From Ulota crispa (taxonomy: Eukaryota; Streptophyta; Bryopsida; Orthotrichales; Orthotrichaceae), in assembly GCA_963920765.1 (NCBI GenBank), contig OY987242.1, positions 8,086,789 through 8,150,788 of the forward strand: DNA of 64,000 bases, written 5' to 3'. The translations under genes and the position numbers were made by a program. This document shows positions 3,640 to 62,553 of the stretch, piece after piece. The notes below the pieces were generated by a model that worked only from the letters and a program-made list of their open reading frames with translations, was not told where the DNA came from and made no database searches. How positions within the stretch are numbered: position 1 is the stretch's first letter; every line of letters begins with the position of its first letter.

Positions 3640-4224
3640 AATGTGTTGTGTTTAGCAATCTCTATTTACATGACAAACGATACAAGTTTAAACTAAACAT
3701 GTTAGGAATTACATGGAAAAAGAAAACACAATAATATCACTTATAGTTTGAAAGATTATAATGTTTGAACATGAGGGTGTTAAAACTGCAAAAGTAACTT
3801 GTTGTTTTTATATCCTTATTTCACATGTCAAATCTAAAAAATTGGTTACCAAAAAAATATGAGGTTTAGGGTCATTACATGTTTAACTTTAATCAATTTA
3901 TGGCTTTCAAAATCTACTCCTATATTTTCTTTAAATGGATTTCTAATGTGATTTTTTCTCCAATCTCTAGTGTATTTGAGACTCATTTTCAAGATCTTCC
4001 AATACTAGAAAATTCAAGATTGCAAAAGATACCCTTGTACAAAATCTTGAGTAAAAAAATCAATAATTTTTTTTTACAAAATCAAATTTTTAATGTTGAA
4101 AACAGACATCAAAACCAACTTAAGTAGAAAAAAAAAGTTTGAAAAGAGTGATTTGATAAGTTTTTATTCATCTTCAAAGTTTTGTTGCGACCCAAATCTG
4201 GTTGCTTGGGCATTTAGGAGTTAA
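3640..4224 (+). mobile_element. Relic of TTAA/CCC element, family epsilon
   Basis: This stretch is alignable by eye, in the same orientation, with the interior of the element at 50413-51074 (shared landmarks such as AAAACACAATAATATC and ATGAGGGTGTTAAAAC). Its right end is CATTTAGGAGTTAA, a slightly decayed version of the family end. The left end is lost or diverged. No coding capacity is visible. Confidence 0.7.
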
Positions 4225-4269
4225 ACAGATAATTCTAGAAGAACTGTTTCCAAAATTTTCAGATTTGTT

Positions 4270-6055
4270 GACTTTGGAAATTCTTATTTCTTTGGTGTAT
4301 AGTACCCTTACATAATGATACGTAATCCATGTTTTGGCATTCCAAACAAGTTTGTGTAACAAAAAATTTAAGTGGTATTTCAATGTCATATTGTTGGTAT
4401 CTAATTCTCATGCAATCCTACTCAGCTATATCAAATTTTGGTTACTAAAAACCAAAATCCTACTTTTGGTAATTAGTTTTGTGTCACAATCATGGTTTTA
4501 TAAGAAAGTTGATTAAAACACATTGGTGATGAATTTTTGAGATTTGATTGCATGGGTATGTAGGAAACATCCATACGCACATTTTCTCTTCTAAAAAGAA
4601 CCCTCTTAACCCTTTAGAGACCACCAAACCATATTTTGGTTTGAGAAAGTGATTTTTGGCTTGTAGAGTAAAATTGTTCAATAATTTGGAAACCAGTCTT
4701 GAAGAATGCTTGTGCTCACAAGAATTTTGCATCCAACCTAATAAAAAACAATGAGATCAGGCATGTGAGTTGATAAACAATCATGTTTATACGGCATGGC
4801 CTCAAAGTTTGTATCCATATTTGGTCAAAGATGGATCAAAGCAACAACACAATACATCAAACATCTAAGAAGAATGTCAAATTTCAATTGTGCGGTCCTA
4901 AAAATTTTCAAATTTCTCTATACAGTAGTATTATAATTGTAGTATTTGAAGATCTATTGAAATGGTGTTATCATTTCATATTAAAAATTTGTTGTCTTAC
5001 ATTTAGAGACAATTCTTTATTGTTGTCACCAATTGGATTTTCCATAGTTTTTATCAATTTTCTTGTAAAACTGTTTTTGGATAGCAAATAAAGTGGGATT
5101 TTTGACCCTTTTTTCCACTTAGCTACGCCTTGTGATTGCTATTTTTATCCATTTTGTGTGAAACTAGTCTCATTGGAAAGTTGAGAAACCCTAATTTTTA
5201 GAAATATAAGGCTCTTCTCAAACAAAGCTTGTATGAAGTAGTAAGATCCAAAACCACACAAACACAAAAATTAGAGATATTCCACCTACAACTCATAATA
5301 TTTCACTTCCAATGGTAGATTTAGTTGAAATTTTGATACTTTATAGTAAACAAGATGTTCTTCCCATTTGTACAGTTGGATGATTAAAATCAAGTCCATG
5401 TTGGATTCAACCGCACATCCAAGTTTACTACCCCGGTTTCAAATGGATTTTGTGAAAATGTGTGTGGTCTTTAAAGGGTCAAGTACCAAATTTATGATGA
5501 ACAAAGAGTTCAATGTGGGGTGTGGTAGGACCAAAATTTGTAAAGTAGATATTTTTGTTTTTTTACTCATTTTTGGCTAAGTAAACTTTTTGCCATGTTC
5601 AAAGGTACAAATTTAGTCATAATGTATGAATCAAACAACAAAACTTGATTATCACAAATAAATATCTATTTTACAAAATTTGGTCCTACCACACCCCACA
5701 TTGAACTCTTTGTTGATCATAATTTTGGTACTTAAGAGGGTTCTTTTTAGAAGAGAAGATGTGCGTATGGATGTTTCCTACATACCCATGCAATCAAATC
5801 TCAAAAATTCATCACCAATGTGTTTTAATCAACTTTATTGTAAAACCATGATTTTGACACAAAACTATTTACCAAAAATAGGATTTTGGTTTTTAGTAAC
5901 CAAAATTTGGTATGGCTGATTGGGATTGCATGAGAATTACAAAACCGTAATGCAAGGCCAAAAAATGCAAATTATACTCTAGTTTATGCAAGTTCATTGA
6001 ATGGCAAAACATTGCCAAACGTAAACATACTGAGGGGTACTGTACATTTGTATTA
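4270..6055. repeat. Long inverted repeat (foldback element) split by a TTAA element
   Basis: The left arm (about 4270-4605 plus 5483-5575) is the reverse complement of the right arm (about 5655-6055), roughly 85-90% alike near the centre, with a spacer of about 80 bp around 5610. The left arm is interrupted by the element at 4606-5482, while the right arm keeps the uninterrupted sequence (CTCTTAAGTACC read on the minus strand). The family and the outer ends are not identified. Confidence 0.8.
4606..5482 (-). mobile_element. TTAA/CCC element, family alpha (piggyBac-like MITE), 877 bp
   Basis: The left end is TTAACCCTTTAGAGACCACC; the right end is GGTCTTTAAAGGGTCAA, where the TTAA has decayed to TCAA. 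The whole length matches 59019-59922 in opposite orientation. The paralogous right arm of the surrounding inverted repeat has a single TTAA at 5732-5735 in place of the whole element, so it was inserted at TTAA and duplicated it. There is no transposase reading frame. TTAA duplication with CCC termini is the piggyBac signature; the assignment is by ends only. Confidence 0.85.
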
Positions 6056-6370
6056 TGGCCATCTTGTAGGGTTTGACACAATCCAAACATGGATTCTAAG
6101 TGCTCTGGACATTCAAAATACTCTTATGATAAGTCATCTCAGTGTGTCAAGCAATGATCCTTCAAAGCAATATTCAACCTAAGTTTTGTGAGCAATATCT
6201 TGTATTTCCCATGTTGAATGGTCAAATAATTTTATAGAATCACGCTTGAAGTGCAAAGGCCATGTTTGATATGTATGGATAGAGGACAAGAATTTGAGGA
6301 CTTTTCAAGAATAGATGTTATCTCTAAAAGTGTCAAGGTGCAACAAGAGATGCTCTAAGGGTTGTTTCAC
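6050..6370 (+). repeat. Dispersed repeat, second copy at 39480-40830
   Basis: The sequence parallels the interrupted copy at about 39500-40800: shared order of CTTATGA..., AGTGTGT, CAATGA(C)CCTTCAAA, GCTTGAAGTGCAA and GGCCATGTTTGA. This copy has none of the inserts found in the other one. Element class and ends are unknown. Confidence 0.65.
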
Positions 6371-6639
6371 ACTATGGCCAACATTTCCACCAAACAAATA
6401 GCAAAAATCCAAGAATTTGACCTCTCAATAGAGTCAAAAGTCCCTTGCCTCTCATGACATCAATTTTTCATCCAAAACCATGGCCTCTCAAGAAAAGTTT
6501 GGATCAAGCAATAATGGAGATCCAAACCAAGGTTGAGAGGTCATTAATTTTTTCTAACAAAATAATCAAAAGATAACAAGATCTTGGTTGTTAGATTTGG
6601 AAGGTTTAATAAATATTATGACTTTGGACTTTGGGCTTG

Positions 6640-7285
6640 GTTTTTGGAGGCTTCACACTATGACCATTCAAGTTGAGAGGCCATATTTGAACTTGACCTT
6701 TGGAGGCTTCATGCTAAGGACAACTAAAGATGTCAAAAACAATATTTTATTACCTTGTTTCAAATTAGAGGAAAAATGAGCTCAAGAGAAGGCCCCTATA
6801 CCTTGACAAACCACTTTATTTATTGAGGTAGGAGAAGCATAGGTAAGGTACCTACACAAATGTCTCTACCTTGTGTGAAGTACTCAAATGTACCATGGTA
6901 CACAAAAAAAGGATTGATGATGGAATACAATATAATAACATGATAATGACAAATGCAAGGACCTTTAGTGGGACACAAGAATAAACTAGGATTAGAATTC
7001 CCAATCAAACAAGGACACTCACTAAACAAAAAGCATATGATATTGTAAAAAAAATTACTCTCAGGAAGTACTTGTAAGTGGGTATAGGGTATTAGTCTCT
7101 TTTCATTTGAAAAAGGACATCTCATCTAAATGCTTTTAACCCCTTCAACCACTTCCCATAGGAACCTTTTCTTGAGCTCACTTTTCCTCTAATGTCAACT
7201 CATTTCTTTGACCTTTCTACAAAGTTTGACCACTCAATCCCATGGCCTCTTGAGTTGGTCGCCCATAGTGAGAAGTGACCATGAG
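6640..7285. repeat. Foldback/MITE-like element with long imperfect TIRs
   Basis: An inner inverted pair is strong: ATTAGAGGAAAAATGAGCTC from 6764 and its near-perfect reverse complement ending at 7192, extending about 35 bp. A weaker outer inverted match (CACACTATG...GAGAGGCCAT against its complement near 7250-7285) suggests the element reaches about 6640-7285. No reading frame of note. Superfamily not assigned. Confidence 0.65.
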
Positions 7286-8526: not shown

Positions 8527-9440
8527 TTAACTCCAAAAGGACCAAGCCCATTTTTTGTAAAAGTCACTGAAACGCTCTCACTTCTAGGGGAATGACTAAA
8601 AAGGTAAATTTTTTTTGAAAATCCAACCACAAGATCTTGCCTAGGATAAAGAGATGTGCTTGCGGGAAAAAAATTAGCTCATTTCAAATGAAAAAGAGTG
8701 AGATATTGACATCCAAACTAAATAAACTTATTTTTCTTTGTTCACGAAATTTTCACAAACTTCTGCCCACTTTTATAGTAAAAAAATTTTCTATGCAAAG
8801 TTGATGAGGTTTAATTCCTCCTTGTAAAAAACCATGTTAGGTGTGTTTGGAAAATTATCAAATGAATAGAAGGAGTACAACATACTATGAAAATTCTTGC
8901 AATGTCAAAAGCTCATGAAATTTGTAAATACACAAAGGCAAATTTGGAAGCATTACTTTACATTTCAAATTTGAAATTATACTAATTCAACAATAAAAAC
9001 CAATGAATCTTAGCTTACTACAACCTAGAAAAAACCAAAAAAATAAATAAAATACACAAATTGTTCAAAAAACAAAACGTCCAAATCCTACAAGGGGCAA
9101 ATGAAATGAAGGGTTAGGTGTTCCCCAAGACAAGGCCCCTTCCACTCTGCTCCCCTTTGTCCAAGTGGCCATACCTTGTGCCTCTAAAGGCCGACCCTCT
9201 TTGAAGTCAACACCTAATTACAAATGAGAGACCCTACCTAAAGTGTCCCTCCTCCTGTGATTTTGATTAATTCTTACATGACTTCTTTCTTGAATGTCCA
9301 AATGAAGAAAAACATAGATTCCATGTAAGTTTTTAAATTCTTCACCTTTCATAAAAGTTCCAAAAAATCTTACAAAATAGTACAACTATAGTTACATGCC
9401 CAAAAACTCCATTTTCCTCCAAAGGGATGGTGCCTAGGAA
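8527..9440 (+). mobile_element. TTAA/CCC element, family beta, copy 1 (decayed)
   Basis: It starts TTAACTCCAAAAGGACCAAG and continues colinear with the copy at 10792 (ATCCAACCA.AAGATCTTGCC, TTAGCTCATTTCAAATG, CCACTTTTATA). Its right end near 9440 is decayed relative to the copy ending 10795. First of three same-orientation copies within 3.2 kb. Confidence 0.75.
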
Positions 9441-9863: not shown

Positions 9864-10795
9864 TTAACCCCTAAAGCCATGGGGCCTTTATTTTGTCAAA
9901 AGAGACTCAAAACTGCCATTTCTATTGCAAAGAGTAAAAAAGTTTGAAAATTGGTCTTTTTGCATATCTAACAACAGGATCTTGTACTAGACTTGTATAA
10001 GAATGTGTACACAAAAATCCATAAACTTTGACTACACAAATTGCAAGATATTTGCATTTAAAGTGTAAAAAACAAACATTTTTGCACCTTGCATGATTAG
10101 ATTATTTGATTTCAAACTTTTTAAACTTAAAATTTTTGCACCACAAAGTTTTGAGGTTCATTTTTTTATGATGGAAAATTGAATTGAGAGTCTTTGGAAA
10201 AAAATCAAAACAAAATATTCTTAATTCTTATTCTTTAAAAAAAAACATTAGATAGAAGAGGGTTTGAGATTGATCAAAAACTTAAATTGTTAATAACCTT
10301 GCAATGGAATTGAAACACAATAATAATCCCAATGGTAAGATTGTTCTAGAAAGTAAACTTCACCCTTTCCAATAGTTTCTTTTGGGAAAATGCTAAACTT
10401 CTATTCAAAAATGAAGTTTGTAAGTTATTTTTTCAATAAGATGCTTGAATTGCCCAAAAAACAAAATTATCCATAACATTCTCATAACTAGTCCAAATGG
10501 AATGAATCAAAGCTTCAGATGTAGATAAAACTATAAACTAGGAGAAATCAAATTTTTTTTTAATTTAAGTTTTTGTAAGAAGAAGTTTGCTGCCCAATCT
10601 CCATAAATTTTTGCTTATCTAGGCATACCTTTTGCTTCCAAGCATACATTGGAATAAAAATTGTATTCCCCAAAAGATAATGTGTTTTTCTATTTTCACA
10701 AAAAGCTTCAAAAAATCAAGACCAAAATCAAGACCGTAGGTACTTGCCCAAAATCCCATTTGTCCACGAGGGGACAATAGGGCTATAGGGGTTAA
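9864..10795 (+). mobile_element. TTAA/CCC element, family beta, copy 2, 932 bp
   Basis: It is bounded by TTAACCCCTAAAGCC at 9864 and GGGCTATAGGGGTTAA ending 10795. The interior is colinear with copies 1 and 3. A short hairpin, TTGTCC-N6-GGACAA at 10760-10777, lies just inside the right end. The right TTAA (10792-10795) is also the left TTAA of the next copy. There is no transposase frame. Confidence 0.85.
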
Positions 10796-11715
10796 CCCCT
10801 AAAGGACCAAGCCCTTTTTCCTACGAAAATCACTAAAAACTACCACTTGTAGGAGGTTTAGTAAAAAGGGATTTTATTTTTTGTTTAGGGGAAATCCAAC
10901 CATAGGATCTTGCCCCAAACTAGAAGAGGTGATTGTGGGACAAAATTTAGCTCATTTCAAATGGAAAAATGAGATATTTTCATCTAAAATGTAAAAAAAG
11001 TTTTTTCCCATGTTGCCCAAAAATTTCAAAAGCCTTTGACCACTTTTATAACAAAAAAATTGCTCTACCCAAACTTGTGCATTTTTTTTTCATGTAGGAG
11101 ATCAAATTAGGTATGTGTGGGAGAATTTTCAAATCAATTGGAACTATACAACACATGGGAAAAAATGGTAACTAAAAAGAAGTAGAGAACAAGTCAAAAC
11201 ACTAAATTGTTAAGCATTTAATTATTGAAGTGAAAAATGTAGATCCCAACAATCACAATGTTATGATAAAAAATCTACTTCCATTGGTTTATATTTTTTT
11301 CCAAAATATTGAAAATTGAGTAAAATTAAGAACCTCAAAAGTTTATTTTGGAGTAGAGAACCCATAAATACCCGCAAACAAAAACTCCTTATAACTTTCA
11401 TCTCATTGATTGAAATTGAATGATTCAAAGCTTCTCAATATAAAAATATATAAAGAACCAATTCCAAATTTTAATTTTAAAAAAAGTAAAATTTAAAGAG
11501 GTTTTTGGACTGCCCGGATAGGCAGTCCTCCCCAAATTTTCATAAATTCATGCATAACTTCTTCATTGAATGTCGGAATGAAAAAAATTAGATGCTCACA
11601 TAGATCTTTGAATTCCCCACCTTGAATAAAAGTTTTAGAAAATTACACAAAGTAGTTTTGCCATACTTACATATCCAAAGTCCAACCTCTCCGCGAAGGG
11701 ACAATGGTCCTTTAA
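10792..11715 (+). mobile_element. TTAA/CCC element, family beta, copy 3
   Basis: It starts TTAACCCCTAAAGGACCAAG, sharing the TTAA at 10792-10795 with copy 2 head to tail. It is colinear with copy 1 over more than 700 bp. The right end is shortened to GGTCCTTTAA (11706-11715), where a GGTAG-type element begins at once. Non-autonomous. Confidence 0.8.
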
Positions 11716-14584: not shown

Positions 14585-14644
14585 CAAGCCCTTGTGTAAC
14601 TCGAATAGAAAACATTAAAAAAGGGCCGCCATAACTCCCCCAGG

Positions 14645-15493
14645 TTAATCCTTAAAGGTCTACACATCCACTTTTTGGATGCGCCTTGGTCAACCATGAT
14701 TGTAACTTTCAAAATATCAATTTTTGATATGTGGCTCAAACTAATAAAATGAAGCTAGACAAGTTTTCTTTCTATTCCATTTAATTTTTTTGAAAGATGT
14801 CAAAAATTGAAAGAGTTATTTCCATTGAAAGCTCCAAGTGTCAGAATCCAAATAACACAACATGGTGTGTTTTTCACTCATATTTTCTACTCTTTAAATG
14901 AATTTAAAATTTAAACTACAAATCTATGTTTCTCATTCTACCATTCATTTATGGTAAAAATTATAAATTTTTTTTAACATATATTTTGATTGATATTATT
15001 TTATTTCCACATTTAGCTTTAAAAAACCACAATAATTCAAAATTTCCATCAAATTTATCAAAAAAATTAATGTAAATAGAAAATGAATGTGCCTTCCAGC
15101 AAAAATATCAAAATTTTATAAATTAATTAAATATAAGGATAAACTTGGTTTGATAGTCATATTTGACTTGAAATTCTTTGTTGTGGCTGTTTTGGGTGTA
15201 AAAAATAAAATAACTAGTTGAATTTTTTTAACAGTGGTCTTTAATGCTGCTTGTTACATCTTGAAAAAAATTAAAGTAATTTGGATTTTTTTTGCTATTT
15301 TACTTTTTTATGTTCATTTTTGAAAAAGAAATGATATCAATTACAATGAAACAAATTGAAATTTCTTGCAGTGATATATCATTCATAGTTTTAAGCAATA
15401 AAAATGTAAAAGTGTTGTTTGAACACACTTTAAAAAGACAAAATTGAGCTTAGACATGAAGTTTGACCATTGATCAAGTCCTTTAGGGGTTAA
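14645..15493. mobile_element. TTAA/CCC element, 849 bp
   Basis: The left end is TTAATCCTTAAAGGTCT; the right end, read on the minus strand, is TTAACCCCTAAAGGACTTG. The two are a 17-bp inverted pair with few mismatches, flanked by TTAA on both sides. The interior is AT-rich and non-coding and resembles no other copy in the window. Confidence 0.8.
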
Positions 15494-25771: not shown

Positions 25772-26875
25772 TCCTGGAATTTTTATTTCTCTCATCAAGG
25801 CTTTGAGAAACACGTCCATACGGTAACACTTTCGAAAGGGCCCCTTTTTCTCCTCTTGACTTCTGACTTGTAGGTACTGGTTGTCCTTTTAAGGGGCAAC
25901 GCCAACCGAGTCCTGCCACCAAGAATGCGTGTCCTTCCTGGGTTGGTTCATGGGGTTTCAGTGAAGATTGTGCACTAGGCATCACAGGGAAACACTACGA
26001 TCTTTTCGGGAACAGAGAACATGACCAGAGAATCTGGGGTACCATGAGATCGCAGCACTTATGAGGTGCCCAAGTTTAAGGATTTGAAAGCAATACGCAA
26101 TTCAGACATAAAGATTCTGCAAGTGGCATTAAAACTTGCCTGTTTCGAATTCTCAGGACAAGTACATTGGAAACTTGTACCATTGCGAGAATAAGTATAC
26201 TAAGGTTTCAACGGCATGTAAATTGCGAAGAAAAAAATATTTCTTCAGGATCACATTGATCACGTTCTTCTCTTACTTATGTGACACGAATCTCATCTGT
26301 TAACCCCTAAATGCCCACGGCACCCAATTTGGGTGTTTCCAACACTGAAATTTGATGCCGTGGGCATTTAGGGGTTAAGTACGATTGTCACAGATTTAGG
26401 TTTTGAAAGGAAAAGGGTAGGATATGTACAGGTACATTGTGGTACAACTAGGTGGACTGGCATTTTTTCAGAACACTTACCATATTGCAAATACTACAAT
26501 TCATGTCAGAATGTCAACCAGAATTTGCAAGATTTTGATAAATGCTCATTAAAACCCATGTACTTGCCTGCCTTGTAAGCACAGACAATTCGTTGGGCAC
26601 ACATCAGGTAGTGCTAATGTAGGTTTCAAAACCAGTACTTTGTATCGGTACTACTGCAATATAAATCTCCATCATCGACCACTTCTGATATTTTCGAGAG
26701 CATAGAAGAGGTCGTAACCTTCAAAGCACATGGTAGGCTGGGGATCAAACGCTCCTCAAACCACAAAAACCAAGCTCTGAGCTTTCACATATGCTTGCTG
26801 AAGTAGTTTACTCAGTGTACATAAATCGCCCTGTCATTCCCGCCTTGCACATTTAGAATCCCAAGTTTCCGTGTT
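25772..26875. other. Spacer between the convergent DUF674 genes
   Basis: No coding frame is supported. It contains the 79-bp TTAA element at 26300-26378. The 3' untranslated ends of both DUF674 genes should lie here; poly(A) signals were not assigned. Confidence 0.5.
26300..26378. mobile_element. Minimal TTAA/CCC element, 79 bp, 23-bp perfect TIR
   Basis: It starts TTAACCCCTAAATGCCC and ends with the exact reverse complement; the perfect inverted match runs 23 bp from each end and leaves only a 33-bp middle. It is flanked by TTAA on both sides. A second, decayed element of this type starts at 47260. With so little interior it could only be moved by a transposase supplied elsewhere. Confidence 0.9.
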
Positions 26876-29231
26876 TTAATCCCGCCCGCCTTTCAATGGA
26901 GTTCCCGTGCGTGAGCATTCGCAGCAAGGTGTTTCAGCACACTGAGGAAAAAAAGCCTCCTTCTCAAAAACTGCACATTCAAGCAGAGTACATCATTGCC
27001 TTGCTGCATAACATTGGCAAATTATAATTCTTCGAGCAAATTGGCAACTATGCAGCAAAATTACTGACTGCAGAAAGGCTCAAGTAGCATAGTACCAACG
27101 GTTTTGACATCCGCACAATACTTGCCGAACACGTCATTTAACACATTTGTAGAAGTAAAGGACGATTTCAACAGCTGTAAGATCTGCAACGAATCGCAAC
27201 GACCAGCATCCACAAACAAGCACCATTGAGTACTTCTCGATCATGAAATACGGTGAAGGTGAAGCAAAGCGGCATAGATATATGCCAGAGTTACGAGTCA
27301 AGTTTGCAGTATATTCCAAAATATAAATTTTAGCTGAGATCATATTAAAGAGGTCTGAGTGTACCTCGGATTTAACAACTGACACCGGCATGGTGTCCAA
27401 GTTGCCAACTCGTTCACATCGAATAATTTTGAGTGTAATGAGAGCCTTGATCGCCTCGGAACTTGCATGAATATCAAGAGTGTTGGTGATCATATACTTG
27501 GTGCCTTCCCTCACATAGCCTTCTCCGATTGGGTTCTGCTTAACCCAACTTCACACGTCCAAGCGTCAAAGCCAGATTTAATTCCACAAGGCCTAAACCC
27601 AACTCGCAGACATGAAGGAAACGTGGGACTTAACCCGAGTGTCGAAATGACCAAGACTTGCTCCCGTCCATAGGAGTTAATACAAATCATTTAGGAAGCT
27701 TCAAGAAAGGTAACAAAAATACCACCAGAAAGAAGAAATCATGCCCATTGTTTTGGAAGTTGCTAGTATTGACCAGTAGCTGCCGCAATTAGTGGATTTT
27801 TGTTATTATTCTTCGGCACTTTGTAGTTAAAATGAATTATATACCATGGAAGGAGCGGGGCTCGTAGGCAATACGGGAAGCTTTAAGCTGAGACCCCTCG
27901 TCGGTAGGCGAACAACCACAGGGTCTGCAGGACCAGCTGCACTTTTAGCAGTAGACGGTCTAACAGTAGACCGCCGACTTTGAGCCCTCGAGGGAATCTT
28001 TTGCTTGACAACGCAACCATCCGAAGCACATGCTCGGCCACGCTGCGGTCGTGAACTGGTGCGACCTGACTCGTGATCATCTGGCTGTTCCTGCCCAAGT
28101 GGAGTTCTGTACATCCGTTAGCTTATGAAACAGTCGCTAATAAGGCTAATAAAACAATGCAACAACCCTGAACATAGCGTTTCTCAACCTAGCACATTCC
28201 ACAAGCACAAGCAAGCTCATAACGAAATCAGTCCAGGCTCTTTGCTCGCAGAAGAATTCATCAATAATGTGTACAACAGTCATCATACACTCTATGCAAA
28301 TATCCACACCAAGCAACTTATTTACTTAACCCCTGAAGGACCAAGATCTCATGGTTGTGAAGTGATCAAGTAGATTGTGACATGTACAAGATGGAGACGA
28401 GATTTTATATCACCAGAATCAGTGAAGAATGTTGCACGTGTCAATCAAAAAATGTGGGCAAAAGTCTTCATGTGACCTAATCAAAACTGCCAAAACAAAG
28501 TTTGAGGAGTTATTTAGGTATGGTAGGCTTTTCCAATTTCACTGCAAGGCCAGGTATGGCGTCAAATCCAGACATACCTGAGAGTTCGCATCACTATGCT
28601 CGTTAGCATCGGCCCCATGTCCACGCTCCACCATCTTCAACGGGACGTTCATTTTCTTTTTGTGTTTCGGGCACTTGGTATTGGGACTTGTGGTGTAGAA
28701 AGTGCAAGCATCTCCACAACTGTAATTATTTGGAAGCTCCGTGCTCACAGTCGACCGGCCAGAGGCAGAGGGCGTGACAGGGAGAGCCAGCAGTTTGCCA
28801 GCTCCAAAGGGAATGACTGGCTTGGGGTCCACCAAGCACTTCTTTTCAGAGCTCATCTCCTTGGAATCCAACCTTACGACACTGCCAAAAATGTTGGAAA
28901 GGGAGCTCATAGAAAAATGGTCACTGGATTCCTTCTTCTCCGTTTTGGGCCTTGGAGTACAGGGTTTACCAGGAAGCGGAGCTACTTTGCATTCTGGTCT
29001 GTGAATCATGGAGGCTTCCTCCAGGAGCTTGATTATGCAACCCATAGGCAGGGTCAGAAACCCTAACAGTGTGTCCACGAAATCTTTCCCTGCCTCCAAA
29101 CACAACACCTGCCTGGTCGCCTTGGAGAAGAGGAGGACAATGGGGATAGTCAAATCCACCTTCCGTGGAGGCAATCCGCAGTTGACACAAAGCTCCTCTT
29201 CCGCATCATCCGGTGGCTTCGAACCCGCCAT
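26876..29231 (-). CDS. DUF674-family protein B, about four exons
   Basis: Exons by eye on the minus strand: 29231-28578, 28090-27845, 27535-27365, 26941-26876, about 378 residues, all phase 0. Exon 1 is secure: CVNCGLPPRKVDLTIPI, QVLCLEAGKDFVDTLLGFLT, GCIIKLLEEAS, a SLSNIFGSV segment and KCPKHKKKM. Exon 3 is also family-typical (GYVREGTKYMITNTLDIHAS). Exon 2 is an Arg/Ser-rich insert not seen in A. The last exon is tentative: a good polypyrimidine-CAG acceptor exists at 26942, but its peptide lacks the LLRASLT segment seen in A, so the C-terminal half may be lost or decayed. Reading on past 27365 to a stop at 27134 is the alternative. Intron 1 holds a TTAA-type end at 28326. Confidence 0.75.
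28326..28360 (+). mobile_element. Single TTAA/CCC-type end in intron 1 of DUF674 B
   Basis: TTAACCCCTGAAGGACCAAG matches the family beta terminus. I could not find the partner end before the exon at 28578, so this is a solo end or a decayed element. Confidence 0.55.
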
Positions 29232-30545: not shown

Positions 30546-30779
30546 TTAACCCTTAAACGACCAAAAGGCTCTTTGTGACTAGTACAATATGGGGTATTCT
30601 TCTTGTATTTAGAATGGATCCACACCTTTATTACATTTGAAACCAACAAAGAAGTTGGAGAATAGATCAATGCAGTTCTAGTGAGTTACTTGAGATCCCA
30701 AATTAAAATTTCTTATCAATAGCAAATGACAATTATACGTCAGTATATATACGGTTCCCTACGGTCGTTTAAGGGTTAA
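30546..30779 (+). mobile_element. TTAA/CCC element, family gamma, copy 1, 234 bp
   Basis: The ends are TTAACCCTTAAACGACC and its exact reverse complement, a 17-bp perfect TIR including TTAA. The interior (ATGGATCCACACCT, TGAGATCCCAAATTAAAATT) matches 55571-55797 in the same orientation and 59935-60167 in reverse. Confidence 0.9.
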
Positions 30780-31103: not shown

Positions 31104-31493
31104 TTAACCCTTAAACGTCCAGTGGGTGGCCATGGCCTCCCCACACTGTAGCTTCGATAGTGTTTATATTGTACCTTCAACAATGTTTTGATTGATGTGC
31201 ACCAATAGTATTGCTTCTAAAAGTTTCAAAAATCAATAGTGTATGCCGACCTCATGAAAATTGCAATAAGGGTAGCTTGGGACCTAGCATTGTGATTTTG
31301 AATTTTCTCACAATTTGGGTTACCTAAAATATGAGTATATATGATAAGAGTATTATTTACCTTCTATGGTGGATCATGTGTTTACAATCACTTTGGAAAA
31401 AAAAACAAATGAAAAACAACTTTTTTCTGTTGTACATAATGCTTTTTTAGGGCCAGAGGACGAAAAATGTCCTCATGGGTGTTTAGGGGTTAA
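31104..31493 (+). mobile_element. TTAA/CCC element, family delta, copy 1, 390 bp
   Basis: It begins TTAACCCTTAAACGTCC and ends GTGTTTAGGGGTTAA. The interior matches 62185-62553 in reverse orientation (GTGCACCAATAGTATT, CTTGGGACC, GGATCATGTGTTT). Just inside the right end is the hairpin GAGGACG-N5-TGTCCTC at 31456-31474. Confidence 0.9.
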
Positions 31494-41236: not shown

Positions 41237-44200
41237 ATGTCGTCGCCCATGGGCATCCCGACACTGACACACAGCGGCTCGAAATCGAGGCCGCTGGTAT
41301 CGCCGGCGTCGTCCTTTCCAGCGCGAGGGGGGTACTTCCGAACGCACAGCCAGCCCGAGGACCAGCAGCAGCAGGCGTTGCTGCGGTCCTACTCGTCCAA
41401 CCGCAGGGCAGCAGGGCGAGACCTGCCACCAGGGATTCTGCAGGAGGCGCTGTTGCAGCAAGCGAGCCAGCACCGGGAGGACTGGCACCATGCGGACGTC
41501 GATGAGCGGGGCGCCAGCTTCTTGCCGGTGCCGGCGAAGCTCACGGTGTGGCAGGAGCTCCGGCGGCAATGCTGGCTGGCCGGGCCGATGGTGTGCGTGA
41601 ACCTGCTGCAGTACTCGATCACCGTTGTGTCGGTCGCATTCGTGGGCCACCTGGGTGAACTCGAGCTTGCCAGCGCTTCCATCGCCAATTCCCTCGCTGG
41701 CGTCCTCGGCTACTATGTTCTGGTACCGTTCTCACGCCCTCCTGTTGTGCGACATTCCGTCTGATTCCTATTCAATGCTCACATGTGTACAAACCATCCC
41801 ATGTCGCTTGATTTACGTATGTGTCCATTGCAAGTTCTGTGCATTTGTGCGGTTATGGACAAGGTCTGCTTCTCAAGAGCTTGTGAAGATCAGGTGTGTG
41901 TGTACAATGAGTGTATAGTAATTTTTATCTGTCTCGTAAGCCAGCTTGCATAGCGAGAATTCTGCAAAAAATATGCATGATTCTGGTGCTTGAGCTTAGA
42001 TCTCTTCTAAGGCTGCTGTATTGATGATTCAGTCGATTTTGAGAAGGAGAAATACCGGAGTTTCAGTGTTAGGGTTTACTATGTTTCTGAGTGAGGTTCA
42101 ACAAATATTTGGTCCCATTTGAGTTGTGCTATTTTTAAGGATCGATCTAAAACCTAGGTCCTCGTAGGGGTTAGGGTTTATGCGGTGGTTTTGTTGTCGT
42201 GAATTGCAGCTGGGCATGGGGAGTGCACTGGAGACGCTATGCGGGCAAGCGTACGGGGCAGGCGCCCTACACCATCACATGCTGGGAGTATTTCTGCAAA
42301 GAGCGCTGGTGGTGCTCTACGGAGCATGCATACCCATTTCGTTTCTCTTCATCTTCATGGAGGATGTGCTGCTGTTGTTAGGCCAAGATGCTCAAATCTC
42401 CCAGAAAGCGGGCGAGTACGCACTCTGCTTGCTGCCCAGTTTGTACGCGTATGCGCTCCTGCAGCCAGTGGTGAAGTTTCTGCAGACCCAAAGCGTGGTC
42501 CTCCCCATGATGCTCTGCTCCGCTGTGACGTTGCTCTTGCATTTGGGGATTTGTTACACTCTTGTGTACACTCTCGACTTTGGGTACCGCGGCGCTGCCG
42601 TGGCCACCAGCTTGTCGTTTTGGCTGAATGCCATTTTTTTGATCTCCTATGTGAGATTTTCGGGTGTGTGCAATCATACCTGGAAAGGATTTACAATGGA
42701 TGCCTTTGTGGACCTGCGGGAGTTTTTGAGTCTGGCCATCCCATCTTGCATTATGATCTGGTATGTCACTTCACCCGCACATTTCCAAAACTCTGTTGAT
42801 TGATTGATTTCATGTTAGTATTCTATTAAGTAAATGGCGGGGCTAATCTAATGGACTTGATTTCTACAGCCTTGAATACTGGTGCTTTGAGATTCTGATC
42901 ATTTTAGCCGGACTTCTTCCCAACCCGAAACTTGAACTTGCAACTTTGTCTGTCTGGTACTCTTTCCTGCCAAATCTCTCTCTTTCTCTCTCTGTTGAAG
43001 CTTTTTTTTATCGATTTTTTTTTTTGCGACAAACAGACGCAATGCTCTTGCTGGTGATGTAAATCCTTGGTTCTTTAGGAGTTAAGATTGTCTGTACGGG
43101 TTTCGAGAATCCAGTGACGATGGTGATACTGACGTGGGGTATTGTTGCAGTTTGAGCACAACTTCTTTGAATTATATGATTCCTTTTGGTCTGAGCGCTG
43201 CCGCCAGGTTCGTTTCCTTTCCCCTACACATGTGTACTGGATGTGTTGAAGTAACATGCACACAGTTAAAGGTGTTATAGATATTCTGAAGCAGATGTCC
43301 GTTCTTCTGGCATGTACTTGAACGAAAACTTTGGTGATTTTGTGGCTCGATGTGGCTTTTCCCTGTGATGTGATAGTAGAAAAAGTTATTCAAATATTGG
43401 CAGAGACTGTCGTCTTCTCCTATTTCAGTAAGATTTTGAAAGTAGATTGTATTGTAGTAGAAAACTGTGATATAAAAGCAATTGGGTGATCTCTGTGACA
43501 GGAATCTGCCATTAGGCTTTTTGGTTTTCCTTTTGCAAGATGAACTGACTGAATGGAATTTTTGCATTTGCAGCACAAGAGTGGCGAATGAGCTTGGAGC
43601 TGGAGATGCTCCGGCGGCGAAACAAGCTGTGGTGTCAGTGGTGAGCCTGTCTGCCGCTCAAGCTCTGGTGGTGTCGAGCTTGCTGCTGTTGCTCCATAAC
43701 CGATGGGGCTGGCTGTTCAGCGGCGATGCAGAAGTGGTGGAGACGGTGGCGGGCATCATGCCTTTCATTGCCTGCGTGGCTATTCTGGACGGCATCCAGG
43801 GTGTGCTCTCTGGTATGTCACAACTACACCAATTGTTCTATTTATTGTGTGTTTACACTTGAAACCCTTTAATTATTCTGTGAGCACATTGTGTTAGTGT
43901 ATCTACTGACGAATACAATTAAAGAGCTTTGGGTCTCTTGTTGGTCACTTTTCGCTTCAGGAGATCTAGTCATTCTTGCACCACATGATAATTGAAAGCC
44001 AACCGAGGTTAAGAATAGATGAGTTGCTGCTGATAATTGAAGCCAGTATAGGAGACTAAATTAATTTTCCTCAAGGGGTAGTTCCCATTATGTTCACATG
44101 CAAAGTCGCATAGAAATCCCAGAATTTGAGTGGTCAACAGCTAAAAATTGGGACATAACTATTCATGCTATTTCTGAATTAGGTGTCCCAGTTCACTTAG

Positions 44201-47259: not shown

Positions 47260-47322
47260 TTAACCCCTAAATGCCTAAGGGTACTTTTCTGAGTTTAGGA
47301 AGGCATTTTAGAAGTTTTTGAA
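47260..47322. mobile_element. Decayed minimal TTAA/CCC element
   Basis: TTAACCCCTAAATGCC starts it, as in the 79-bp element at 26300; the far end is decayed (GGAAGGCATTTTAGAAGTT). Confidence 0.6.
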
Positions 47323-47342
47323 TTGGAATTGTGAGATCATTA

Positions 47343-47802
47343 TTAATCCCTAAAGGACCAAAGAGCTCAATATGGCCAAATGTGGTTCTTGGAGGTGTAA
47401 AAGTAGACAAAAAAGGTGTTGCATGCTCAAGTTGTGGTCTACCGCTCAAGTTATGGTCTACCACTCAAGTCTAAATGGAGCTAAAAGTTCAACAAAACTT
47501 TTGGATCGGCTTGTTGTTCCTTGAAGCCTCTAGATTTTGCACCTAAACATTTGGATTTACTATTTTTAATATTAAAGCTATTAATGGGAGTGTATATAAG
47601 CATTGTGCACTGCATTGTGGATGGAGGAATTTTGGATAGGATGGGTTGGAAGCCCACACTTTCATGTACAGGGGAGAAGGTTGGTGATGTGTCACTTTTT
47701 TTTCTCTTGATTGGGCAAGGTTTTTGTAGCTCTAAAGTAGTAAGCTAGCTAGATCCACTTACTTTGAATGACCATAAGTTTTGGAGTTTTTTCTCATTTG
47801 AG

Positions 47803-47834
<32 letters not shown>

Positions 47835-48158
47835 CCATCAAGTATAACTAAATACGGTCTCATGGGATCAACCATTAGGTAATTTTTCTTTTGGAGAAAA
47901 ATCACATCAAAGTCCAAAATCCATATTATGAACTACTACCCAAATTAACAAACATGAGATTTTCAACAGTGGGGATTTTGCAGATTTACTTGGATTTGAA
48001 ATCAAACTAGCCTTAAACTTTTGATTATTAGTTGGGTATAGAATGATTGGTTTGTATTGTGTGAATACTTGTTCAACTTTCTAAAAATTAAGGGAATGTG
48101 CTAGAGGTTCCATATTGGAGGTATGCTAAATTTTCTTAGCAAGACTCTTAGGGGTTAA
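47343..48158. mobile_element. TTAA/CCC element, 816 bp
   Basis: The left end is TTAATCCCTAAAGGACC and the right, inverted, TTAACCCCTAAGAGTC. It contains a pure T run of about 31 at 47804-47834, so length may vary. No other copy in the window; no transposase frame. Confidence 0.75.
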
Positions 48159-48554
48159 ACATTGACAAAAAAACTATAATTGTAAGATCTTGAACTTCAA
48201 GGCTTTCAAATGATGTTGCTAAAAAATTCTAAAAAAACCACGCGCATGTGAAGATATTTGTGAATGAGTACAAAGTTTTCTATTTTTTTTGAAACCACCT
48301 TAAACTTGTTATGCAAATTGACAACTTTTAAGTACAAAATTAAGAAACCACCACTGAGGTGTGTATTTTATAACTACCTTTCGCTAAAGCTAACATTTTG
48401 GAACTAGATAATGCTCAAGAGACGAGAGGCTTGAAAACATTTTTGGGCATAAATGTGAAGCCATTTTGCTCAAGGAAGAACATTGAAATTTATTCTTCTT
48501 TGATTGATCAAAGGGTTTGTATAACGATGCTTGGATAAGGTTATCCCTGTTGGT

Positions 48555-50049: not shown

Positions 50050-51104
50050 GGTAGTCGCTCTCAAACCGTCACTGTAAGGGCTGTTCTAGATTTTCATGGG
50101 CTTTACAAGACATGAAGTTTTTTTGCCTAATTTTTTGTCAAAGAGAAATGGATGCTAAATGTAACCCAATTCTTTTCATGTTTTTTGAAGCATTATTGAA
50201 TTGTTGATGAATTTTCAAAGTTTTTGTAGTAGACACCTATTTGTGACTCTAGGTCTCCCATAAAGCGTCCCCCTGCAACTTGTAAATAGATCAAGTAAAT
50301 AGAGGAGTATGATTGGCTCTTGCAATAAAATACACCTCTTTTTTAAAAACTAAGAAGAAGGATCCATTCAAGAACCATCTCATATCCAATCTTGAACTAC
50401 CTATGGAACGCTTTAACCCCAGAACGACCCTGGAGATTCTTGAGCTTCTACAAATTTTCTCTAATTTGAACAAAAAGTCAGCATTTTGATACTTTGTATC
50501 AATTCTTTTTGAATTGTAACTGTATAAAATCAAACTAGACATGTTAGAGATCACACTAGAAAAGAAAACACAATAATATCTCTTATGGATTGAAAGATTA
50601 TAATGTTTAATCATGAGGGTGTTAAAACTATGAAAGTGATTTGAAGTCTCTCAATCTTCTTTTCACATGTCAAATTGAAAAAGTTGATCACCAAAAAAAT
50701 ACGAGGTTAAAGGGCCTAATATTTATAACCCCAATCAATTTATGACTTCTCAAAATCTACTCTACAATTTTTTAAAATGAATTTCTAATTTGATTTTTTC
50801 TCAAAGATTTAGTGTACTTGAGGCTCTTTCTCAAGAACCCTCAACACTACATAAAATCAAGATTGCAATGGACACCCGTGTACAAAATCTTGAATAGAAA
50901 AATCATAATCAATCATTTGTAAAATCAGATTGTTGAAATTAAAACTAAACTTCAAAAAGAATCTTTCAAAAAAATAAACTACCTAAAATAGTAATTTGTA
51001 ATTTGATAAAATTTCATTTAACTTCAAAAATCGGTCGAGGACACATTCTGTCCTCAATGTCGTTCTGGGGTTAAACGTGAGGGTCGCAACTAGAGCAGAC
51101 TACC
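50050..51104 (-). mobile_element. GGTAG-type TIR element split by a TTAA/CCC element
   Basis: The left end GGTAGTCGCTCTCAAACCG and right end GAGCAGACTACC are inverted. Left (50050-50412) and right (51075-51104) parts together equal the uninterrupted element at 45279-45681 read in reverse. The intervening 50413-51074 is family epsilon. Confidence 0.85.
50413..51074 (+). mobile_element. TTAA/CCC element, family epsilon, intact-looking ends, 662 bp
   Basis: It starts TTAACCCCAGAACGAC and ends GTCGTTCTGGGGTTAA, a perfect 16-bp TIR including TTAA. It matches 33729-34963 (reverse) and 3640-4224. The hairpin GAGGACA-N5-TGTCCTC lies at 51037-51055. It sits within a GGTAG-type element and ends about 290 bp before the WDR25 start codon. 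Confidence 0.92.
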
Positions 51105-54527: not shown

Positions 54528-55343
54528 CGAGGTAGTGGATAAGAGAGATCTTTTGGTACAAAGACCAAAACTTTTTGAAGCCAAAATATCTTCACTATGT
54601 ATAAAATTCTCATGCACTTTCAAAGTGAGATTTCACAGCGGAAGAGTCTGGACCGCTGTAAGTTTCTTACACAACCCCATTTCCATGCAAAGCTCTGTGG
54701 TCATCAACATTTAGCCAAGCTATGCTGACACTGTTGACAAAACCCAACTAACTGGATGAGGACCTGAAAGCTATCTTGAAGCAGATGGATTTCTGCTGGA
54801 AATGGGGGTCAGTATGGGTGACATTACGTTATGAAGAGCAGAACAGTTTTATTGTACTCTTACCTTACTATGGTGTCAATTCCGAAGCAATGATCTTCGA
54901 TGTTGCTAAATTCTGCAAATTTCTACCAGAAATTTTTTACAGTTGCAAAAATTGTGAAAACCGGTGTGAGATTTGAGATCTGAACACGTTTAGCAGTGCT
55001 TTTAGCAATCAAAGCGATTTATGAGTTTCACATTGTAGTTCCAAATTTTCCAATTTACCAAAGAAACCTTCAAATATCGCAATTCGTATTGTGCTTGTTG
55101 ATAGTTTTCCTGTGTCATGCAGTTGTGCTCGGTGCATGATCTCTGCTTCCGTTTGTACATTTCCTCATTGAATGTGCTGTGCCCTTTCTGCAAACTCTAC
55201 TAAATTCTGGGCTATGGTGAATATGGTGTAACATGGTGAACAATAGCTGAGATAGGTGTAGCTTATAGAGCCTTCCCATGCACTGTAATACGATTTTCTA
55301 AAGTTTGTGGTTATTATTGTTTGATGGCAACACATTTCAACCC
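54528..55343. other. WDR25 3' region and spacer
   Basis: Probable 3' UTR followed by spacer. No recognised gene or repeat. Confidence 0.5.
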
Positions 55344-55574
55344 TTAACCCCTGGAGGGCCCTTGGGCTCTGGAGCTACGGCACCAAACACGGTAGCAACC
55401 AATATTCAAAAGTTTGAATAGCTGAAAATTAAGTGTTACAACCATACATATTGAAGGATTGTATGATGGTGGGTGCATAAAAAAATTTGGAAAGCCCTCA
55501 AAGCAGCTCAAATACATTTGTACATACAGCCATACATATGATCGTAAAGGGCTTTTGTGACGTTTAGGGGTTAA
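55344..55574. mobile_element. TTAA/CCC element, 231 bp
   Basis: It begins TTAACCCCTGGAGGGCCC and ends GTGACGTTTAGGGGTTAA. The interior is not shared with other families here. Its right TTAA (55571-55574) doubles as the left TTAA of the next element. Confidence 0.8.
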
Positions 55575-55797
55575 ATGACCAAAAGGCCCTTTGTGACCAA
55601 TACAATACGGGGTATTGATCTTGCATTTGGAATGGATCCACACCTCTATTACATTTGAGATCAACAAAGAAGTGGGAAAATAAATCAATGCTGTTCTAGT
55701 GAGCTACTTGAGATCCCAAATTAAAATTTCTTATTGGTAGCAAATGACAATCATACGTCAGCGTATATACTATGCCCTATGGTTGTTTATGGGTTAA
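55571..55797 (+). mobile_element. TTAA/CCC element, family gamma, copy 2
   Basis: Colinear with 30546-30779 (GACCAAAAGGC, TTTGTGACCA, GGATCCACACCTCTATTACA). The first few bases after TTAA are lost; the right end GTTTATGGGTTAA is slightly decayed. It abuts the preceding element through a shared TTAA. Confidence 0.85.
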
Positions 55798-59018: not shown

Positions 59019-59922
59019 TTAACCCTTTTAAGACCACACACATTTTCACAAAATTCATTAGAAACCAGGGTGGATGTGTGTTTGAATCAATTATGGACCC
59101 AATTTCAATCATCTATCCGTACAAATGAGAAGTAGACCTTATTCACTGTAAAGTATCAAAATCTCAATTAGATCTACCGTTGGAGGTGAAATGCTATAAT
59201 GATTGAGTGAGTGGTATGCAATAATTCTATAGTTTTCATGCTTGTGTGGTTTTGGATCTTACTACTTCATACAAGCTTTGCTTGAGAAGAGCCTTATATT
59301 TCTAAAAAGCTGTCTTTCCCACTTTTCCAATAAGACTAGTTTCACACAAAATGGATAAGAACAGCAATCACAAGGTGTAGCTAAGTGAACAAAAAGGGTC
59401 AAAAATCCCACTTTCTTTGCTACCCAAAAATATTTTTACAAGAAAACTGATAAAATGCTATGGAAAATCCAATTGGTGAAAAGAGTAAAGAATTGGCCTT
59501 AAATGTAGGATGCCAAATTTTTAGGATGAAATGATAGCACCATTTCAATAGATCTTCAAATACTACAATTATACTACTACCATACAGGAAACCAATACAA
59601 GCATATTTCTAAAGCAATCTAAATTTTTTTAGGACGGTATAATTGAAATTTGGCATTCTTCTTGGATGTTTGATGTATTGTGTTGTTTTTGATCCACCTC
59701 TAACTAAACATGAATACGAATTTTGAGGCCACGTCGTATAAACACCATTATTTATGAACTTACATACCCGATTCCATTATTGTTTTTTTGGTTGGATGCA
59801 AAATTCTCATGATCACAAGCGTTCTTCAAGAACAATTTCCAAATTGTTGAGCAATTTTACTCTATATGCCAAAAACCACTCTGTTGAACCAAAACATGGT
59901 TTGGTGGTCTCTAAAGGGTTAA
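59019..59922 (+). mobile_element. TTAA/CCC element, family alpha, full length, 904 bp
   Basis: It starts TTAACCCTTTTAAGACCAC and ends GTGGTCTCTAAAGGGTTAA, both inside perfect TTAAs. Colinear with 4606-5482 reversed (AAATCCCACTTT, AAAATCCAATTGGTGA, GATCTTCAAATACTACAATT). No frame above 80 codons. Confidence 0.9.
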
Positions 59923-59934
59923 TAAAATTTGGTC

Positions 59935-60167
59935 TTAACCCTGAAACGTCCATAGGGCATACTATATATGCTGACATATAATTGTCATTTGCTACCAATA
60001 AGAAATTTTAATTTGCGATCTCAAGGAACTCACTAGAACAGCATTGATTTATTTTCCAACTTCTTTGTTGATTTCAAATGTAGTAGAGGTGTGGATCCAT
60101 TCCAAATACAAAAAAATATCCTGTATTGTATTGGTCAGAGCGGCACGCTCAGATGTTTAGGGATTAA
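59935..60167 (-). mobile_element. TTAA/CCC element, family gamma, copy 3, 233 bp
   Basis: Ends TTAACCCTGAAACGTCC and GATGTTTAGGGATTAA; the interior is the reverse complement of 30546-30779. It lies only 12 bp after the family alpha element. Confidence 0.88.
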
Positions 60168-60726: not shown

Positions 60727-60889
60727 TTTATGAGGATTCTTATTGGAAAATATTTGAGTTTAACCAGTTTATTTCCTTCCATTCCAATATTGAACCTGTT
60801 TATCAAGGAACTATCCCCATTATTGTTTTCTCTAGGAAAAGTATAAAAACTGTCCCTCAATTCTTTCAAAGTATCAAATATACACATAC

Positions 60890-61470
60890 AAGTTTAGATA
60901 CCCGTTGTACCAACGGAGGCAACAACTTGATTCAAAGTAAAGTCTTAGTGTAAATTACTGTAGGTTGGGAGCAGATTTGGCAAGTCTCTGCCAAATCAAT
61001 TATTTTTTGAGAAAAACCCAATTAGGCATTTGATTTCATACTTAAATAAGATTAGGCACTTTAAAAAAAACTGTTATTATTTGGCATTAAACCAATTTTT
61101 TAGTAGAGTTAAGCCTTTTTCTAAGCATTTTCCACTTTCTAAAATTAGCCCTTGGTATAAAATTTGCAGTAGATTAAGCCCTCTTAGAATCAACCTTGAC
61201 CGTCCATTGTTAGTAAGCGTAATGACTTTTATAATATTTGACATTTCAATTTTTTGATTTGTTTGACATTGGGCACTTTTGGAAAGTAATTTATAGAATA
61301 ATTAGGCAAAATTTTGAGGAATTATTTATGCCAAATCTGCTATCAACCTACAGTACTTTAGGCATGTACCCTTCTCTCTCCTACTAGTCTTTTGCTAAAA
61401 GGACTTGGTGTAAATAAGTTTATGCATGTACCCCTCTCTAATGTGGTGGTTAATAATAAAGTATGACATA
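60890..61470 (+). repeat. Copy of the 48.5-49.1 kb repeat, split by a TA-flanked MITE
   Basis: CGTTGTACCAAC.AAGGCAACAA-type sequence, TTCAAAGTAAAG and GCATGTACCC parallel 48880-49060, with 60958-61353 inserted. Outer limits uncertain. Confidence 0.6.
60958..61353. mobile_element. TA-flanked MITE, 396 bp
   Basis: TIRs CTGTAGGTTGGGAGCAGA and, inverted, CTGTAGGTTGATAGCAGA extend to about 25 bp. TA lies on each side. The paralogous sequence near 49030 continues without the insert. TA duplication suggests the Tc1/mariner group. Confidence 0.78.
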
Positions 61471-62184
61471 TCATTGGAAATTACACAAAAACACTTTCTT
61501 TTAACCAATTAGATTGAGTCGCTTCACTAGATGTTAACAACTAATCAGTGATATTTGCATCACAACACTCTTGTAGCCAATTAAAATGTGGATGTATTCA
61601 TTTATATATATAAGATATTATCTAAAATATCAAAAACATCCTTGATTTTGTGTTGGAATATTGGTTACACCTCTAGTTATAATTGAAAACATCTAACACC
61701 CTTAGTTTTCTTGTTCCTCTTTATTAAAATTTTTGTAAGTCACATTTGCACCAAAGACATTCATAAAGAAAAGTTGAGAGAAAAGCGTGTTGTTTAGTCA
61801 ATACAATGGCTTTGGCCACAATAAATTTAAATGCAAAAACCCTACATAAAGCATGAAGAGCTTCCCTCCAAGATTTTATCTACATTCAACTTGCATTTAG
61901 TGTTTGTAATTTTCATTATCATCCCTATATTTACAAAAATTTGCACCAAAGAGGTACAAAAAAAGTGACAATATTAGATATTTTCAAATATAGATAGGTA
62001 TATAATTGGTATTCTTACACAAAACCAAGGATAATTTGGTATTTCAAATAATATAGGGATATGTTTGATATTTTGAAAGAATTGAGGGGCTAATTTTGAT
62101 GTTTTTCCTTTTTTTTCTATTTCATATTCATTTGCAGATAAACTCTTTTTTGAAGATTTTAAACTAGTTTGTGTAAGCAAATGT
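61471..62184. other. AT-rich spacer, no gene seen
   Basis: Low-complexity AT-rich DNA with no supported frame or repeat partner. Confidence 0.5.
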
Positions 62185-62553
62185 TTAACCCCTAAACGTT
62201 GAGGAGGACAAAAAATGTCCTTTGGCTCTGAAAAAAAATTCTGTAATTCAAGAAAAAAGTAGTTTTTTAGTTGATTTTTTTTCAAAAGTGACCATAAACA
62301 CATGGTCCATCATGGAAGACAAAATATTACTTCTTGAGATGCATTCAATTTTTTTTGTAACCCAAATTGTGATAAGATTCAGAAACATGGTGTCAGCTCC
62401 CAAGCTACCCTTCTTGCAATTTTCATGAGGGCACCATGCACTATTGACTTTTCCAACTTTTTGAAGTAATACTATTGGTGCCCATGTGCAAAACACTATA
62501 GATTGCTACAAGCAGGGCAAGCCACGGTGATCCATCCATCCTTTAAGGGTTAA
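62185..62553 (-). mobile_element. TTAA/CCC element, family delta, copy 2, 369 bp
   Basis: Begins TTAACCCCTAAACGTTG and ends ATCCTTTAAGGGTTAA. Reverse complement of 31104-31493 throughout. The hairpin AGGACA-N5-TGTCCT is at 62205-62221. Confidence 0.88.

Follow-up and report, generated by a model that had tools for sequence, protein, structure and literature searches.

Small TTAA-flanked elements with piggyBac-type ends from several lineages in the moss Ulota crispa

Short elements in the window and across the genome

The window described here, a stretch of 64,000 nucleotides from the moss Ulota crispa (GCA_963920765.1, contig OY987242.1, positions 8,086,789 to 8,150,788 of the forward strand), contains small elements flanked by TTAA and carrying CCC at their ends. 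We are confident that these are non-autonomous elements (miniature inverted-repeat transposable elements, MITEs) of several lineages of the piggyBac superfamily, in a genome that also holds their decayed full-length relatives. The 17-bp end TTAACCCYTAAANGWCC, with up to 3 mismatches, occurs 33 times in the window, against a mean of 2.20 in 100 dinucleotide shuffles (largest shuffle count, 8). We paired the ends by homology, by script and by eye, which gave 14 elements with two recognisable ends; another 4 have a single end or two-ended homology (Table 1). This agrees with an earlier sequence-only reading that had described many relics sharing TTAA/CCC ends. The lengths it gave also agree with ours which, with one TTAA left out, are 75, 227-230, 365-386, 658, 812-845 and 873-928 bp; the exception is 33729-34963, brought to 1,231 bp by extra sequence. 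That reading erred in starting an element at 3640, which is not a TTAA terminus, and in supposing that the families have almost nothing but their ends in common, as several share long subterminal or interior blocks. The ends at 9864, 10795 and 33729 require 4 mismatches and hence fall outside the 33 matches. Five of the 33 could be assigned to no element, where chance predicts about 2; those at 28326 and 43069 begin with TTAA and those at 14546, 23672 and 30799 do not. Two termini have decayed, to TTGA at 5482 and to TCAA at 55337.

These elements insert at TTAA and duplicate it. The cleanest proof is the nested element at 55344-55574, which interrupts a terminus of the 230-bp family at its TTAA (TTAACCC/TTAA/ACGACC). 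When 55337-55797 is rejoined without the nested element and one TTAA, it is identical to the unsplit element at 30546-30779 in 204 of 234 columns, with no gaps. We sought related empty sites for 111 candidate end pairs and found three besides this one. For window element 47343-48158, the rejoined flanks align to the full-length element C5_10869739 with a single TTAA. The empty site of the second, at locus L025, has one intact TTAA with a left flank aligned over 15 bp only, longer matches elsewhere having a mutated site, and that of the third (L003, with its counterpart in L015) now reads CCAA. Moreover, the outermost T of TTAA is kept in 8,154 of 8,479 copies (96.2%) of the commonest end, TAACCCCTAAAGGACC, which argues against a duplication of TA, TAA or TTA. 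The elements at 9864-10795 and 10792-11714 have a single TTAA in common (10792-10795), as would be expected if one had inserted at the flank of the other.

We searched the genome (274.8 Mb in 157 contigs) with the 17-bp end, as the same reading had proposed. Exact TTAACCCYTAAANGWCC is present at 12,303 sites (6,143 + 6,160), the reversed control giving 0, and a wider pattern (NGNCC, up to 1 mismatch) at 47,690 sites (23,834 + 23,856), the reversed control giving 60 (29 + 31). Paired convergent ends within 1.5 kb were indeed found: on contig C1, among the matches listed (81 of 100 listed places for TAAAGGACC, whose listed minus-strand matches reach to 1.83 Mb, and 100 each for TAAATGCC and TCANYGCC), the ratio of convergent to divergent neighbours was 16:1 for TAAAGGACC, 21:0 for TAAATGCC and 22:0 for TCANYGCC, with 2 same-strand neighbours over all three end types. 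The spacings cluster at ~920 bp for TAAAGGACC and at 75 and ~648 bp for both other types; in terms of the lineages introduced below, A-type ends go with ~920 bp and B- and E-type ends both with 75 and ~648 bp. On the assumption of two ends for each element and a mean length of ~0.65 kb, end-bounded elements would make up roughly 5% of the genome.

Full-length elements carrying piggyBac transposases

A profile search of the genome with PF13843 (piggyBac, DDE_Tnp_1_7) gave at least 120 matches, a lower bound because the best 116 of 528 candidates were scored; none of these lies in the window, where the sequence-only reading had likewise seen no transposase. The best match has an E value of 1.3e-73, the matched stretch is free of stops in 10 of the 120, and none of 14 control genomes gave a match. 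We inspected 21 copies with wider flanks, picked for few stops or full domains and extended where a candidate end appeared. Twelve of them sit in TTAA/CCC-ended elements of 5.0-8.8 kb that fall into six lineages, A to F (Table 1), so that the longer copies with a DDE transposase that had been called for do exist. By sequence comparison, the ends of the small elements match those of these large ones. In ten full-length elements, 2.0-6.0 kb of sequence precede the domain on its 5' side and 1.1-2.5 kb follow it on its 3' side. The limits of homology coincide with the TTAA termini between C4_11553055 and C9_12442616, and also between the two lineage C copies.

The encoded proteins resemble known piggyBac transposases. 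Open frames of lineage B (L034), of lineage A (L088) and of the end-less locus L047 match piggyBat (9c0f), piggyBac (6x67, which we take to be that of Trichoplusia ni) and PF13843. Three acidic residues, presumably those with the catalytic roles of the DDE triad, line up in 16 of 24 copies, a group that takes in all 11 two-ended ones, while 8 of the 24 have lost one or more, as judged by eye. PF13842, searched for as the cysteine-rich domain of the C terminus, has no match in the genome, though the controls gave none either; inspection by eye shows a Cys-rich tail behind the domain of C5_10869739 (L034 1207-1674).

In order to build a tree we used those 24 domain sequences, reading stops as X. 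Copies of A, B, C, D, E and F are held apart in clades at 100/100 support, deeper forks having 87-93% in places. Lineage D rests on a single two-ended copy, and C6_14253071, which lies outside the tree, was assigned to F by its ends. Each of the six lineages has its own end variant, with different bases after position 9. Taken together, the tree and the ends indicate that the first 9 bp (TTAACCCYT) stayed nearly constant while the transposases diverged.

Some copies were considered and set aside. Nine more were viewed with 1.5-kb flanks only, and an end is visible in one of them (L036). The copies with such flanks at L031-L045, which show no end within 3 mismatches and no good TTAA-bounded inverted pair, were rejected as evidence against a link between ends and transposases, because the domain of full-length elements can begin so far from the 5' end. 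The stop-free copies at L046 and L047 were rejected as autonomous elements, neither being surrounded by a matching end pair. Nor do we claim that the 8.4-kb elements hold a second gene in the conserved DNA upstream of their transposase, where several frames score alike. Stop-free domains lacking recognisable TTAA/CCC ends are found at L047 3311-4408 (C2:34594948) and L052 (C4:3591922-3593028); the first retains all three acidic residues, the third of which is changed to N in C4_3591922. Both are candidates for domesticated piggyBac-derived plant genes.

Table 1. Elements and lone ends in the window (positions in the window), and full-length copies with two ends elsewhere in the genome
Feature	Position or copies	Strand	Remarks
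650-bp-family element	3673..4224	+	right end TTAACTCCTAAATGCCC (lineage B type); left end not found
873-bp element	4606..5482	.	ends TTAACCCTTTAGAGACC / TTGACCCTTTAAAGACC; family of 59019-59922
Lineage A derivative	8527..9427	-	far end eroded
928-bp element, lineage A type	9864..10795	-	81-82% full-length identity to L009, L016
Lineage A derivative	10792..11714	-	far terminus eroded; aligns to both lineage A ends in order
845-bp element	14645..15493	.	ends TTAATCCTTAAAGGTCT / TTAACCCCTAAAGGACT; no relative among the sequences compared (window and extracted genome loci)
75-bp element (79 with both TTAA), lineage B 5'-end type	26300..26378	.
Lone end TTAACCCCTGAAGGACC	28326..28342	+	motif match
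230-bp element	30546..30779	.	doubles as empty site for the nested insertion at 55344
386-bp element	31104..31493	.	subterminal GAGGACA...GTCCTC hairpin
650-bp-family element	33729..34963	-	enlarged by ~577 bp of other sequence (33805-34381)
Lone end TTAACTCCTAAAGAACC	43069..43085	-	motif match
Lineage B 3'-end fragment	47260..48359 (47260-47342 + 48159-~48359)	-	interrupted by nested element
812-bp element	47343..48158	.	inserted at TTAA within the lineage B fragment
658-bp element, type member of 650-bp family	50413..51074	+	ends CCCCAGAACGAC
230-bp-family element	55337..55797	+	split by nested 55344-55574
227-bp nested element	55344..55574	.	at internal TTAA of the 230-bp element's own terminus
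900-bp element	59019..59922	.	family of 4606-5482
229-bp element, 230-bp family	59935..60167	-
365-bp element	62185..62553	-	family of 31104-31493
Lineage A, two-ended	C4_11553055 (8,430 bp), C9_12442616 (8,526), C5_24512207 (8,825)
Lineage B, two-ended	C5_10869739 (5,742 bp), C4_14102832 (5,452)		right TTAA of C4_14102832 now TCAA
Lineage C, two-ended	C1_30795509 (5,304 bp), C2_24508776 (5,226)
Lineage D, two-ended	C5_21018488 (5,506 bp)
Lineage E, two-ended	C3_13132787 (5,023 bp), C10_11527521		left TTAA of C10_11527521 now TTCA
Lineage F, two-ended	C5_17378513 (7,085 bp), C6_14253071

Kinship between small and full-length elements

Alignment to the full-length elements identifies the parents of some of the small ones. 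The ~900-bp kind corresponds to the first ~200 and the last ~350-450 bp of an 8.4-8.8-kb lineage A element without its coding region. In the window, 8527-8969 corresponds to the final ~450 bp of such elements and 9237-9427 to their initial ~200 bp, in order, and 10695-10795 matches the 5' end of lineage A. Elsewhere, L027 1501-2425 retains bases 1-177 (82% identity to C4_11553055) and the last ~345 bases (76%). The 79-bp kind keeps a lineage B terminus, its first 37 bp (26300-26336) being 89% identical to the 5' end of C5_10869739. Lineage B likeness is also seen at 4173-4224 (87% to the 5' end of the transposase-bearing C4_14102832) and, against the 3' part of C5_10869739, at 47260-47346 (86%) and 48167-48359 (69%). 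In all, 6 of the 18 window elements (3673, 8527, 9864, 10792, 26300, 47260) have direct homology to full-length elements.

One interior can carry several ends. The ~650-bp interior, with 50413-51074 as its type, bears CAGAACGACC at 50413, TAAAGGACC at 34963 and TAAATGCCC at L030 2433 and window 4224, and in L027 and L028 it bears TCATTGCCC, TCAACGCCC or TCACTGCCC. In L028 and at 34963 the likeness to 50413 starts at base 1 and the terminal bases alone differ, and the parts that do not align to 50413 are the first 40-54 bp in L027 and L030 and the last 85-97 bp in L027 and L028. These patterns are most simply read as the result of recombination or conversion between ends, or of convergent mutation. 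A further suggestion, which we put forward tentatively and consider somewhat more apt to be wrong than right, is that the diverged piggyBac lineages formed a shared mobilisation pool, in which interiors would have swapped their terminal ~17 to ~90 bp, passing between transposase lineages and outliving each of them, and piggyBac, not hAT, Tourist or Stowaway, would be a major source of MITEs; the ends that we cite for it on the ~650-bp interior are CAGAACGACC, TAAAGGACC, TAAATGCCC and TCANYGCCC.

Other repeats accompany these elements. A ~430-bp repeat at window 6764-7195 also occurs upstream of the transposase in each of the three lineage A elements, as well as beside a palindrome at L048 2530-3255. 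The latter is a 726-bp element with CCCCTAAAGGCC ends that is 96% palindromic, a possible source of hairpin RNA, and L021 1501-2248 holds a similar fold-back. A ~400-bp palindromic unit recurs within elements of lineages A and B (C5_10869739, C4_14102832, C5_24512207). A ~325-bp repeat has three copies in the window (11713-12031, 14256-14585, 30777-31101) and another inside C4_11553055; the copy at 30777 is flanked by two TTAA and may be a further element. The window also holds an open frame matching DUF674 (28539-29240), presumably a plant family, and ~16 copies of a 24-bp tandem array, GGACGAAAAGAATGTTGGTTCGAT (62654-63075); Rfam gave no match. Outside the window, contig C157 is a 112.5-kb (112,500 bp) plastid contig carrying psaA and psaB, and 46 of the 48 PsaA/PsaB matches are fragments in other contigs, which suggests that plastid DNA was inserted into the nucleus. 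The PsaB of this contig has its highest score, 1,681 bits, equally with chains 7ksq, 6l35 and 8htu, presumably from photosystem I of the moss Physcomitrium patens (next score, 1,643 bits), as fits a moss host.

Alternative explanations and significance

Several observations weigh against an origin of the small elements from these piggyBac lineages. All 12 two-ended copies carry stops in the domain, and we therefore infer mobilisation in trans from the shared ends only. One TTAA has decayed in 2 of the 12 (TTCA, TCAA). In C5_17378513 and C5_21018488 no more than 11 and 10, respectively, of the 14 end bases pair, and these two copies are counted as two-ended by subterminal likeness or by a copy with the same end. 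The sample of 21 copies is not random; 4 of them show a candidate end on a single side (C7_11819342 and C2_17809954, with weaker ones in C3_11130069 and C6_8842929), and no end was found in 5 (the L046 and L047 copies, C4_3591922, C8_8233119 and C1_13741285). The absence of ends in these nine is weak evidence, because their upstream flank is 2.5-4.1 kb, against the 5.5-6.0 kb needed in lineage A. Genome-wide, only 4 sites carry the exact end of lineage C, 3 of them within its two known copies. The middle few hundred bp of the ~900-bp elements (~400 bp in L027 1501-2425) were not found in the parents. Finally, 12 of the 18 window elements (4606, 14645, 30546, 31104, 33729, 47343, 50413, 55337, 55344, 59019, 59935, 62185) are linked to the rest by end motif and TTAA alone, and none of these aligns over its own length to the ten full-length elements compared. 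Some of the 12 share a subterminal GAGGACA...TGTCCTC hairpin, seen by eye, with lineages C and D. Their ends and TTAA flanks suggest that all belong to the same process.

Among the alternatives, the one that survives best is that a single piggyBac transposase, or very few, moved all the families, close to what the sequence-only reading had proposed for its unrelated interiors. The nearly constant first ~9 bp of the ends, the ~650-bp interior with several end types and the two length classes that B- and E-type ends have in common all speak for it, but such ends are carried by six lineages with long, well-supported branches and their own bases after position 9, A-type ends fall in a different length class, and the ~900-bp kind keeps both ends of one lineage. 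We therefore regard it as unlikely. Several lineages with decayed full-length partners take the place of one or a few transposases; what stands of the earlier proposal is that sharing across lineages is possible, given the ~650-bp interior and the 12 elements without an assigned parent.

Much less probable is that another superfamily moved the elements and that the likeness to piggyBac is confined to the ends. Kolobok and Sola3, as we understand these names, are superfamilies that also duplicate TTAA, and the duplication alone cannot tell them from piggyBac; the 12 window elements without an assigned parent would leave room for them. Against this, the ends, together with subterminal blocks in 6 window elements, are those of PF13843-bearing elements, whose open frames match piggyBac and piggyBat structures. 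A duplication of TA, TAA or TTA by Stowaway- or Tourist-like MITEs, with element-borne bases mimicking TTAA, deserves almost no credence, for although TTAA includes all three and plant Tourist MITEs duplicate TAA or TTA according to excerpts of PMC10004981, the outermost T is conserved, a 4-bp TTAA accounts exactly for the nested insertion and its empty site, and piggyBac transposase partners are present. The assignment to piggyBac made by the sequence-only reading thus holds: TTAA is duplicated and PF13843 transposases lie inside TTAA/CCC-ended elements of the same genome. As far as tested, and with no search aimed at Kolobok or Sola transposases, both points on which it could have failed, copies across the genome with flanks other than TTAA and an autonomous relative from another superfamily, came out in its favour.

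We therefore return to several piggyBac lineages as the source of the small elements. Their diverged transposases would have bound these short termini in trans, cutting at TTAA and inserting the non-coding copies elsewhere, so that the small copies could have grown to outnumber the large ones. The full-length copies would have decayed afterwards through stop mutations, and most of the movement is thus probably past. Since the transposases diverged while the terminal CCC(C/T)T motif remained similar, interiors could have taken the ends of another lineage and been mobilised by it.

The kind of element is ordinary, piggyBac and its MITEs; the host and the number are unexpected. With the piggyBac superfamily, including the T. 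ni and piggyBat proteins, the elements share the TTAA target, CCC ends, a PF13843 DDE domain and the three aligned acidic residues, but their host is a land plant, they measure 5.0-8.8 kb and every two-ended copy inspected carries stops. A passage in PMC10813416 gives a range of 1.23-9.51 kb for animal piggyBac elements, the type element being of ~2.5 kb, which makes 8.8 kb long but not unprecedented. Like piggyBac-derived MITEs, for which excerpts of PMC9942856 cite work on corals and piggyBat, the small elements are non-coding, have the ends of their parent and are far more numerous than it; here, in contrast, several lineages contribute, end-like sites number ~47,690 in 275 Mb and one interior is found with several end types. 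Among plant MITEs, those of the Stowaway (Tc1/mariner) and Tourist (PIF/Harbinger) kinds are also small, non-coding, high-copy elements with inverted repeats, but they duplicate TA or TAA/TTA, whereas here we find TTAA, CCC ends and a piggyBac partner. BogoMITE of the ciliate Blepharisma offers another genome with thousands of MITEs and few full-length partners, although in the same excerpts of PMC9942856 Bogo is a Pogo-family transposon and not a piggyBac.

A 2025 paper on beetle piggyBac calls the superfamily merely occasional in plant genomes and names red algae (PMC12732532), and PiggyBac appears among the angiosperm MITE superfamilies in excerpts of PMC10004981. We found no paper on a piggyBac radiation in mosses in the open-access literature, a weak absence since most subscription papers fell outside this scope. 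Of two occurrences of 'piggybac' in PMC10619864, one is the phrase 'piggybacking of hub genes'. Our results describe a land plant with at least 120 transposase matches, six lineages among the 24 copies in the tree and 47,690 end-like sites. Without a plant model for piggyBac, repeat annotation may fail to classify such elements. Questions that can now be addressed include the time at which piggyBac reached land plants, the number of lineages that were active at once, and whether MITEs can switch transposases through the exchange of their ends.

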